Origin: Haloarchaeobius iranensis
GTDB lineage: Archaea; Halobacteriota; Halobacteria; Halobacteriales; Natrialbaceae
Assembly (NCBI RefSeq): GCF_900103505.1
Contig: NZ_FNIA01000007.1
Span: 62,001-126,000 of the forward strand
Direction of reading: 5' to 3'
Length of the DNA stretch: 64,000 nucleotides
The position numbers and the translations under genes were made by a program. The notes below the pieces were generated by a model. The model was given only the letters and a program-made list of their open reading frames with translations. It ran no database searches and had not been told where the DNA came from. Positions 1 to 59,231 of this stretch are shown in pieces; positions within the stretch are counted from its first letter, which is position 1, and every line of letters begins with the position of its first letter.

Positions 1-1860
1 CAACAGCGCGTCGTCCATCAGGTCCGGGCGGTTCGTCGTCGCGATGACGACGACGTCCTCCAGGTCCTCGAGGCCGTCCAGCTCGGTCAGGAGCTGGGAG
101 ACGACGCGTTCGCCGACGCCGGAGTCACCGGTCCGGCTGCCACGTTCCGTGGCGATTGAGTCGATCTCGTCGAAGAAAATGACCGTCGGGGCGTTCGACC
201 GTGCTTTGTCGAACACCTCGCGGACGCCCTTCTCCGACTCGCCGACGTACTTGTTCAGCAGCTCCGGCCCCTTGATGGAGATGAAGTTGCTGTTGGCCTC
301 GTTGGCGACGGCCTTCGCGAGCAGCGTCTTGCCGGTCCCGGGCGGCCCGTACATGAGCACGCCACGGGCGGCTTCGAGGTCCATCGCCTGGAACACGTCG
401 CCGTAGTCGAGCGGCCACTGGATGGTCTCGCGGAGGCGTTCCTTGGTGTCCTCCAGGCCACCGACATCCTTCCAGGTGACGTCGGGGACCTCGACGAACA
501 CCTCGCGCATCGCCGACGGCTTGACCGACTTCATCGCCTCCTTGAAGTCCTTCTCGGTGACCTGCAGGTTCTCGAGCACCTCGGCGTCGATCTCCTCCTG
601 CTCGAGGTCGAGCTCGGGCCGGATGCGCCGGAGCGCGTTCATCGCCGATTCCTTGCTCAGGCTGGCGATGTCGGCACCGACGAACCCGTGCGTGTTCTCC
701 GCGTAGTCCTCGAGCTCGACGCTGTCCGACAGCGGCATCCCGCGCGTGTGGACCTGGAGGATCTCCAGGCGGCCACCAGTGTCGGGGACGCCGATCTCTA
801 TCTCGCGGTCGAACCGGCCGCCGCGGCGGAGCGCGGGGTCGAGCGCGTCGACGCGGTTCGTCGCCGCGATGACGGTGACCTGGCCGCGCTCCTCGAGGCC
901 GTCCATTAGCGAGAGCAGCTGGGCCACGACGCGGCGCTCCACGTCGCCGGATGCCTCGCCGCGCTTGCTCGCGATGGAGTCTATCTCGTCGATGAAGACG
1001 ATGGCGGGCGCGTTCTCCTCGGCCTCCTCGAACACCTCGCGGAGCTGCTCCTCGCTCTCGCCGTAGTACTTCGACATGATCTCCGGCCCGGAGATGGTGT
1101 GGAAGTGGGCGTCGATCTCGTTGGCGACGGCCTTGGCGATGAGCGTCTTCCCGGTGCCCGGCGGGCCGTGCAGGAGGACGCCCTTGGGCGGTTCGATGCC
1201 GAGCTGCTGGAACAGCTCGGGGTGGCGCATCGGCAGCTCGATCATCTCGCGCACCTGGTCGAGCTCGTCGTCGAGGCCGCCGATGTCCTCGTACGTCACG
1301 TTCGGGACGCCCTCCGCGTCACCCTCGCCGCTGGGGCCGACCTGCTCGGCGGGCGTCTCGGATATCTGGATGTCGGTCGAGTCCGTGATGATGACCGTCC
1401 CCGACGGGTCGGTCGAGGCGATCTTCAGCGGGACCGACTGGCCGCTGCCGCCCATCGGACCGAACGAGAGCGAGAACGGGACGGTCTGGCCGCTGGTGAC
1501 GGCCTGCCCGCTGAGCTTGTCACGGACGAGCGGCCCGATGTTCCCGCGGATACGGAGGTTCTGCGGGAGGGCGACGGTCACGCTCGTCGCGGGCTTCACG
1601 TCGGCCTTCTCGACCTCGACGCGGTCGTCGATACCGACGTTGGCCTGCTGGCGGAGGCGACCGTCGATACGGACGACGCCCTGGCCCTGGTCCTCGGGGT
1701 AGCCGGGCCAGACGCGGGCGACCGTGGTCGCGTCCTGCTTACCGACGAGGCGGATGTAGTCGCCGTTCTCGAGCCCGAGTTCGGCCATCGAGCCTCTGTC
1801 GATCGCGGCGAGTCCACGACCGGCGTCCTTCTGTTTGAGGGGTTTGACGGTGAGTTTCAT
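1..1860 (-). CDS. cdc48: Cdc48/VCP-type AAA+ ATPase (C-terminus cut by window edge)
   Basis: Archaeal Cdc48 homologue, a hexameric unfoldase that feeds proteins to the proteasome. The 620 visible residues contain the N-terminal double-psi barrel region (about 1-190) and two AAA modules. Module D1 has Walker A GPPGTGKT near residue 235 and Walker B VFIDEID near 290. D2 has Walker A GPPGTGKT near 505 and Walker B IFFDEID near 560. The last visible residues are in the TTNRPD sensor-1/arginine-finger region of D2, so roughly 120 C-terminal residues lie outside the window. The start codon overlaps the stop of the upstream mini-Hsp20 gene by 4 bp (ATGA), indicating one operon and translational coupling. 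Family assignment is secure. Confidence 0.97.
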
Positions 1861-2102
1861 GCATCGACCTCCATCTCGATAGTGAGGACGCCGTTTCTGA
1901 TAAACGCTTGCGAGACGCCGGGGACCTCGAGCTCGTACTGCTCGGCCCCGTCGCCGACCACGATGACCGTCTCGCCGATGACGTCGACGGACCCGGTGCC
2001 GGCGAACTCGCCGGCGAGGTCCACTGCCACGACGTGTGCGTCGTCGTACGCGTACTGCCGGACGAAGCGCTCGTCCTCCGCGGTGAAGTCTTGGATATTC
2101 AT
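1857..2102 (-). CDS. small Hsp20/alpha-crystallin-like protein
   Basis: An 81-residue protein that appears to be little more than a short alpha-crystallin-type beta domain. A first strand region (HVVAVDLAG) matches the 'vdlPG' strand of small heat-shock proteins, and the C-terminal segment [10 protein letters not shown] resembles their NGVLTV strand. The usual N-terminal arm and C-terminal IXI tail are missing. It is the first gene of a two-gene operon with cdc48, overlapping it by 4 bp. In Archaeoglobus fulgidus a small Hsp and a Cdc48 homologue are also co-transcribed under the heat-shock regulator HSR1. A role as adaptor or co-chaperone for Cdc48 is inference. Confidence 0.8.
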
Positions 2103-2110
2103 GAGTTCAA

Positions 2111-2142
2111 CTAACCCAAGGTTAGTCGTACTACTATATAAA
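2111..2142 (-). promoter_or_regulatory. heat-shock type promoter with CTAAC-N5-GTTAG operator
   Basis: On the minus strand a TATA box TTTATATA (2142 to 2135) is followed about ten bases later by the perfect palindrome CTAAC-CCAAG-GTTAG (2111-2125), nine bases before the ATG at 2102. The expected transcription start falls at or just after the palindrome, so a bound protein would block initiation. The palindrome equals the motif reported for Archaeoglobus HSR1, which controls a small Hsp / cdc48 operon. Identity of the motif is seen; binding by an HSR1 homologue here is inferred. No such regulator is encoded in this window. Confidence 0.75.
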
Positions 2143-57717: not shown

Positions 57718-58185
57718 ATGACCTACGACAGCCCGACGCAGTCGCCGGCGAGGGCCCAGTTCGTCGACGAGACGCCCGCGAGCAAGCGTATCGTCGAGAA
57801 CACGGACGGCATCGTCGAGCGACTGCGTGACGAGCTCGGTCGCGACCTCACGATGGTCGCGGCGTACAACGCGGACGTGCTGGAGATCCACTACTTCCAC
57901 GAGACGTTCCGCGAGCAGTACGAGCCGTCGGACCTCGACGCGCTCGCCGCGGACCTCTGTCTCGACGGACGCATGGGCGATGCGTTCCAGGAGGAGCTCC
58001 TCCAGCTCGGGCAGTTCAACTTCGTCATCAAGGGGTTCGACGACGGGCTGTTGCTCCGTGCGCCACTCTCGGACGGCACGGGGGTCGCGGTCTCGACGAA
58101 CCTCAACGCCGGTGAGAAGCTGGCGACCGTGGTCCCGCGGACGATACGGAGCTGCGACGTCCGTGTCGTGACGCGGGATCAGTAG
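57718..58185 (+). CDS. conserved haloarchaeal protein, function unknown
   Basis: A 155-residue acidic protein. The middle region IVERLRDELGRDLTMVAAYNADVLEIHYF and FQEELLQLGQFNFVIKGFDDGLLLRAPL are consistent with an alpha/beta fold; no catalytic motif is recognised. Such short proteins are common in haloarchaeal genomes and often near transcription genes. Its last 7 bases overlap the end of tfb on the opposite strand, so the two transcripts are convergent and antisense at their 3' ends. It has its own T-rich promoter-like stretch just before the start. Confidence 0.78.
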   Translation: MTYDSPTQSPARAQFVDETPASKRIVENTDGIVERLRDELGRDLTMVAAYNADVLEIHYFHETFREQYEPSDLDALAADLCLDGRMGDAFQEELLQLGQFNFVIKGFDDGLLLRAPLSDGTGVAVSTNLNAGEKLATVVPRTIRSCDVRVVTRDQ

Positions 58186-59156
58186 CTCGCACCGCCCTCG
58201 TCTGCAGCATCGAGAAGCTCCTTGTAGCGGTTGCGGATGGTGACCTCGCTCACGTCGGCCACGTCGCTGACCACGCTCTGCGTGACACGTTCGTTCGTGA
58301 GCAGCGAGGCCGCGTAGACGGCGGCGGCGGCGAGGCCGACGGGGGACTTGCCGGAGTGGATACCCGCCTCCTTCGCGTCGCGGAGGAGCTCGCGGGCACG
58401 CAGCTCGCCCTCGTCGCTGAGGTCGAGGTCGCTCGCGAACCGGGGGACGTAGCTCTCGGGGTCCGCCGGCTCGACCTCGAGACCGAGTTCGCGGACGATG
58501 TACCGGTAGGTGCGTTTGAACTCCATGTCGTCGACGCGGCTGACGCGGGCGACCTCGTCGAGGCTGCGCGGTACCCCGCCCTGACGCGCGGCGGCGTACA
58601 GCGCGGCGGTGGCGACGCCCTCGATGGAGCGGCCGGGGAGCAGGTCCTCGGCGAGCGCGCGGCGGTAGATGACCGACGCCGTCTCGCGGATGTCGTCCGG
58701 GAGGCCGAGGGCGCTTGCCATCCGGTCGATCTCGCCGAGGGCCTGCTTGAGGTTGCGCTCCTTGCTGTCGCGGGTGCGGAAGCGCTCGTTCCAGGTGCGC
58801 AGGCGCTCCATCTTGCGCCGCTGTTTCGAGCTCAGCGAGCGGCCGTAGGCGTCCGTGTTCTGCCAGCCGATGTTCGTCGACAACCCCTTGTCGTGCATCA
58901 TCTTCGTCGTCGGTGCGCCGACGCGGGACTTCTCGTCTTTCTCTGCCGCGTCGAACGCGCGCCACTCGGGCCCGCGGTCGACGCTCTCCGTCTCGACGAC
59001 GAGACCGCAGTCGGCACAGACCGTCTCGCCGCGTCCGTCGGTGACGAGGCGGCTATCACACTCCGGACAGCGCTCTCGCTCGCGGGCCTGTTCGGAGACG
59101 TCGCGTTCGCGAACGTCAGTCTCGCGACTGGTTGGTCGGGTACGGGTTTCTGTCAT
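58179..59156 (-). CDS. tfb: transcription initiation factor TFB
   Basis: A 325-residue TFB (TFIIB homologue). The N-terminal zinc ribbon is CPECDSRLVTDGRGETVCADCG (about 30-51). The B-finger linker carries GAPTTKMMHDKGLSTNIGW and the two cyclin folds (about 130-215 and 225-310) include AAALYAAARQGGVPRSLDEVA and AAAVYAASLLTNERVTQ. It joins TBP at TATA/BRE and recruits RNA polymerase. Haloarchaea have several paralogues with separate roles, and some respond to heat. The 30-residue N-terminal extension is rich in Arg/Glu. Confidence 0.97.
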   Translation of the reverse strand: MTETRTRPTSRETDVRERDVSEQARERERCPECDSRLVTDGRGETVCADCGLVVETESVDRGPEWRAFDAAEKDEKSRVGAPTTKMMHDKGLSTNIGWQNTDAYGRSLSSKQRRKMERLRTWNERFRTRDSKERNLKQALGEIDRMASALGLPDDIRETASVIYRRALAEDLLPGRSIEGVATAALYAAARQGGVPRSLDEVARVSRVDDMEFKRTYRYIVRELGLEVEPADPESYVPRFASDLDLSDEGELRARELLRDAKEAGIHSGKSPVGLAAAAVYAASLLTNERVTQSVVSDVADVSEVTIRNRYKELLDAADEGGASY

Positions 59157-59198
59157 CGTGGGTGGAGGGCAAGCGGCTCGACACCGCGTCGAGTCCTT

Positions 59199-59231
59199 GC
59201 TAACCGGACGTAATTAGCAGCAACATATAAA
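59199..59231 (-). promoter_or_regulatory. tfb promoter with inverted repeat at the start site
   Basis: The minus strand carries TATA box TTTATATG (59231-59224). About ten bases downstream lies an inverted repeat GCTAA-N10-TTAGC (59199-59203, 59214-59218), near the predicted start site (about 59202), leaving a leader of about 45 bases. The plus strand within it reads CTAAC-CGGAC-GTAAT, a partial match to the HSR1 motif. Its regulatory role is inference. Confidence 0.45.

Follow-up and report, generated by a model that had tools for sequence, protein, structure and literature searches.

HSR1 of Archaeoglobus fulgidus binds the palindromic DNA element CTAAC-N5-GTTAG, while the site bound by Phr in Pyrococcus overlaps the transcription start (PMC9133787). 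Both regulators fall into arCOG01684, which is represented in most euryarchaea (PMC5852551). According to a review published in 2022, halophilic archaea are not known to possess a mechanism of the Phr/HSR1 type, and heat induction has been traced there to TFB factors (PMC9133787); the TFB-directed heat-shock response involving hsp5 and TFB2/TFBb (Lu 2008) is taken here in the form in which that review cites it. Upon heat shock of Halobacterium, the transcripts of cdc48b, cdc48d and tfbG rise 5.6-fold, 3.4-fold and 2.4-fold, respectively (PMC1971269), and at high temperature tfb2 of Haloferax increases by as much as eight-fold (PMC2121645). Heat-induced tfb and cdc48 genes of haloarchaea have thus been reported, whereas an HSR1/Phr-type repressor in halophiles has not, and the cause of the rise in TFB on heat is not explained in the cited literature.

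The locus that we compare with these systems lies in a stretch of 64,000 nucleotides from Haloarchaeobius iranensis, referred to below as the window. It contains the following features:

1..1860, minus strand: cdc48 (CDC48-family AAA ATPase), extending beyond the window edge; its start overlaps the DUF7127 stop in ATGA
1857..2102 (stop included), minus strand: 81-aa DUF7127 protein with a mini alpha-crystallin-like fold (Pfam and predicted fold)
2111..2125, no strand assigned: putative operator CTAAC-N5-GTTAG, an exact palindrome (sequence; conserved in 48/49 genera)
2137..2142, minus strand: TATA box TTTATA, 11 nt upstream of the operator (sequence and fixed spacing across genomes)
58179..59156, minus strand: TFB (transcription initiation factor IIB), 325 aa (domain matches)
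59200..59214, no strand assigned: second putative operator, ATTAC-GTCCG-GTTAG on the minus strand, with the same TATA spacing, before the TFB gene (pattern search)
59226..59231, minus strand: TATA box TTTATA of the TFB gene (pattern search)

Read along the minus strand, the promoter of the DUF7127-cdc48 operon consists of TTTATA (2142-2137), 11 nt, the exact palindrome CTAACCCAAGGTTAG (CTAAC-CCAAG-GTTAG at 2111-2125; CTAAC-CTTGG-GTTAG on the minus strand), 8 nt and the ATG at 2102, so that the palindrome indeed sits between the TATA box and the start codon, as an earlier note on this DNA had described. It occurs as a single copy in the genome of 3,768,606 bases (3.77 Mb). When up to one mismatch is allowed, the window contains two matches versus 0.26 expected from shuffles, the exact one being found only at 2111-2125. 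A search with fixed geometry (TTTAWA-N12-TWAC-N5-GTTAG) retrieves exactly two sites from the genome, one before the DUF7127-cdc48 operon and the other before a TFB gene, and returned no occurrence in 60 order-1 Markov shuffles of the window. Twelve further one-mismatch sites of the genome were set aside; they are without a TATA box at the operator spacing, and none fits the fixed-geometry pattern.

The operon had been proposed to encode an Hsp20-like protein together with Cdc48. The Cdc48 gene is present, but the family of its small neighbor is DUF7127 (PF23444; 49.9 bits versus a gathering cut-off of 27.6) and not Hsp20: the Pfam Hsp20 model does not match the 81-aa protein, for which Pfam reports only DUF7127 and a weak match to CIS_spike_tip. 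Among the matches that Foldseek listed for an AlphaFold model (built from five sequences, pLDDT 82), all are small heat-shock proteins (best E value 1.7e-3, probability 1.0; VIA Z 6.5). Because the predicted fold matches alpha-crystallin domains, the label Hsp20-like appears fair at the level of the structural model. A DUF7127 copy of Natrinema, located beside an AAA ATPase, is annotated in PLSDB as Hsp20/alpha crystallin. DUF7127 is found in 287 of the 292 genomes of the class, and members of family f1 (probably Natrialbaceae) possess a second paralogue with neither cdc48 nor the operator (L079, L082, L085-L087, L105-L107, L109, L112, L113, L115).

Promoters of 134 cdc48-linked loci from 49 genera were compared, and CT(A/T)AC-N5-GTTAG or a close variant precedes DUF7127-cdc48 at the fixed TATA spacing in all of the genera except one, designated g49. 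The exact palindrome is present in 216 of the 292 class genomes; where it is missing, the promoters carry CTTAC, ATTAC, GTTAC, TTTAC or GTAAC as the first half. When each genus is represented by a single row (48 in total), the operator positions T, A, C and G, T, (T), A, G prove invariant or nearly so, unlike the flanks, and the TATA box forms the other conserved block. The pattern TTTAWA-N{8,16}-CTAAC-N5-GTTAG matched 92 of 194 genomes (control: 1), and the fixed-spacing combination of TATA box and operator matched 91 of 116 (108 sites listed; control: 0/116). The earlier note had named absence of the palindrome from the same promoters of related haloarchaea as the outcome that would speak against it; the site is kept in 48 of 49 genera. 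A lone 15-base site, taken by itself, could have arisen as a chance palindrome, but that explanation is refuted by the conservation, the geometry shared across genomes also speaks against it, and we assign it a vanishingly small probability. At DUF7127 paralogues unlinked to cdc48, the site was not found in the promoters.

A Pyrococcus Phr query that is identical to 2P4W over its full length gave one match only at E<=0.001 in this genome. The corresponding gene (G000:C33:22066-22719; L078 ORF) encodes 218 aa and is unlinked to the operon, which agrees with the proposal that the regulator now acts in trans. Its product comprises an ArsR-type winged helix (HTH_5) and an HTH_Cmi2_C domain (PF24270) and is 35% identical to A. 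fulgidus HSR1 over 210 aa; this domain pair is also present in HSR1 itself and in a regulator from one genome of family f13 (probably Methanosarcina). With a winged helix close to that of HSR1/Phr and the shared PF24270 C-terminal domain, the protein belongs with the HSR1-type regulators (arCOG01684). It scores 94 bits with the NCBIfam Phr model NF053602, under the curated cut-off of 320 bits, and is matched by NCBIfam HTH_metalloreg; a literature search on 'Cmi2' found no paper. The search for HSR1-like ArsR-family genes thus yielded one gene in this genome and, across the class, an HSR1/Phr-type regulator in 290 of 292 genomes (E below 1e-45); none was found on the plasmids searched for an HSR1 orthologue. 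Upstream of the haloarchaeal regulator genes the full palindrome was not found; a CYWAC half-site alone precedes the ATG, and their promoters have a AGCAGACACNCTTTTCAGCG block in common (L169-L198; L078 upstream of 1767). This block and the half-site could possibly reflect weak autoregulation or an unusual core promoter.

In the genome that we take, from gene position and operon content, to be that of A. fulgidus (G391), CTAACATAAAGTTAG lies downstream of the TATA box and is followed by the regulator gene (hsr1), cdc48 and hsp20 (L199). Ten further genomes of family f15 have the same site before a regulator-cdc48 pair, the same or a near-same site precedes hsr1-like-cdc48 in families f12, f19, f22, f25, f32, f34 and f36, and family-f13 genomes carry the form CTAAC-N5-GTTAC. 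The haloarchaeal system resembles the HSR1 (AF1298) regulon in the position of CTAAC-N5-GTTAG just downstream of the TATA box, in the inclusion of cdc48 in the controlled operon and in a regulator with HTH_5 and Cmi2_C. Unlike the autoregulated HSR1, the haloarchaeal regulator gene stands apart from the operon and does not itself carry a full operator; moreover, DUF7127 rather than hsr1 precedes cdc48, and a TFB gene is a putative second target. The winged-helix N-terminal domain is shared with Phr of Pyrococcus (2P4W; 54% identity), but Phr is without the Cmi2_C domain and, in contrast to the haloarchaeal regulator genes with their missing full operator, is autoregulated. Judged from these gene arrangements and sites, the haloarchaeal circuit would be a variant of the HSR1 circuit that works like it, minus the regulator's own operator.

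A heat-shock circuit conserved between Archaeoglobales and Halobacteria, as proposed earlier, is supported by the occurrence of one and the same site before A. fulgidus hsr1-cdc48-hsp20 and in 48/49 haloarchaeal genera. The additional claim of an equivalent small-Hsp/cdc48 operon needs to be narrowed: the site is the same and cdc48 is the constant partner, but the DUF7127 gene does not correspond to hsp20 of A. fulgidus. Since the site also precedes regulator-cdc48 operons in other lineages, it seems that in haloarchaea the operator stayed with cdc48 while the regulator gene was relocated and DUF7127 came to stand in front, which suggests a single inherited heat-shock switch across Halobacteriota. 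It should be noted that next to the A. fulgidus HSR1 operon, in divergent orientation, lies a short gene that looks like gar1, followed by tfb (L199 4338-5501); regulator and TFB genes are thus already neighbors in this organism.

The two of the 292 class genomes without an HSR1/Phr-type regulator, G066 and G231, both belong to genus g49, which is sampled by five genomes, one of them 73% complete. In all five, a profile search did not find the regulator, returning only generic HTH matches of approximately 32 bits or less, and the operator was not found at the DUF7127-cdc48 promoter, where CTATTCATSTARYAG takes its place (L127, L135, L249-L253). This joint loss within one genus probably represents a single evolutionary event. 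A CTATT-N5-AATAG dyad, considered as a switched operator in g49, was rejected because it is not kept as a dyad in the other g49 genomes. The weak HTH matches that persist in this genus, and the many ArsR-type proteins of haloarchaea, would suit a real operator that is read by another winged-helix protein and not by the HSR1 orthologue; we regard this as quite unlikely, given that Phr has a single match in this genome at E<=0.001, that regulator-cdc48 operons of other lineages are preceded by the same site, and that g49 lacks regulator and operator alike. Our reading of these sequence data is that an HSR1-type repressor in trans probably controls cdc48 and one tfb gene, with the palindrome as its putative operator.

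The tfb gene emerged from the unbiased search for a TATA box combined with the operator. It is located inside the same window, its product contains a zinc ribbon and TFIIB repeats, and its candidate membership in the regulon is an addition to the earlier note. In other genomes, the second site precedes a TFB gene in families f1, f3, f4 and f10, and operator-bearing TFB genes occur in Natrialbaceae, Haladaptataceae, Halocatena and others. CT(A/T)AC-N5-GTTAG is found at the same spacing at megaplasmid TFBs of Halorussus (3 species), Haladaptatus (2), Halomicrococcus and Halocatena salina; it was not found at the TFB copies of Halocatena marina and Halococcus dombrowskii, and with the strict pattern no TFB site was found in many genera. 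All traced pattern sites belong to DUF7127 or TFB genes except one, a match in genome G017 (L334 1548) that lies before neither. The fixed distance to the TATA box, and the frequent placement of the motif directly next to the ATG, would also be expected of a core-promoter or 5' UTR element that is not a regulator site. At TFB genes, however, the motif lies approximately 40-70 nt upstream of the ATG with the TATA distance still kept; it is a dyad, DUF7127 paralogues unlinked to cdc48 are without it, and it is missing where the regulator is missing, which makes such an element highly improbable.

A dimer of the HSR1-type repressor would be predicted to sit on the dyad. This element spans the stretch approximately 11-26 nt past the TATA box, where it should overlap the start of transcription. 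Archaeal transcription starts approximately 25 nt from the TATA box. With an operator over the start zone, a block of the polymerase is the simplest reading of repression, as described for Phr. The bound repressor would keep RNA polymerase from loading at two places, the DUF7127-cdc48 operon and one TFB gene, and heat or proteotoxic stress would cause it to let go; Cdc48 unfoldase and its small partner would then be made directly, along with a specific TFB that could activate further stress promoters. We infer that the HSR1-type regulator binds these sites, that it represses, that heat is the signal and that a cascade runs through TFB. That this conserved repressor tops the haloarchaeal heat-shock cascade, with heat freeing cdc48 and a dedicated TFB and thereby a wider stress regulon, is a proposal towards which we lean by a modest degree.

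Members of the ArsR type often sense metals, and the regulator matches HTH_metalloreg; it might therefore respond to a cue other than heat (salt, metal, redox, unfolded protein) or activate instead of repress. We consider this unlikely, as the targets encode Cdc48, an alpha-crystallin-like protein and TFB, the site over the expected start fits repression of the kind described for Phr, and members of the cdc48 and tfb families are heat-induced in other haloarchaea. By analogy, at the level of gene families, this induction would support a heat-responsive circuit (PMC1971269; PMC2121645). As in the TFB-directed scheme (hsp5, TFB2/TFBb), a heat-linked TFB gene is involved; in contrast to it, a repressor-type site stands upstream of tfb, a possible missing input, and the hsp5 promoter is without the site. 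No such site was found at the heat-induced hsp5-cdc48d promoter of Halobacterium pNRC200, and other mechanisms consequently exist. An HSR1-type operator on tfb and cdc48 across the class is a concrete candidate for what raises TFB on heat; if the proposal is true, the cascade unites two kinds of archaeal heat-shock response, one of the repressor type and one of the TFB type, which have so far been described separately.

This genome contains 11 TFB matches. The promoter of a second TFB gene (L294 1401-1415) reads TTTATA-N11-CTAAC-TAAGG-GTGAA and has a half-kept operator. In the window, the 5' UTR of TFB (59156-59199) holds a short inverted repeat (CTCGACGCGGTGTCGAG).
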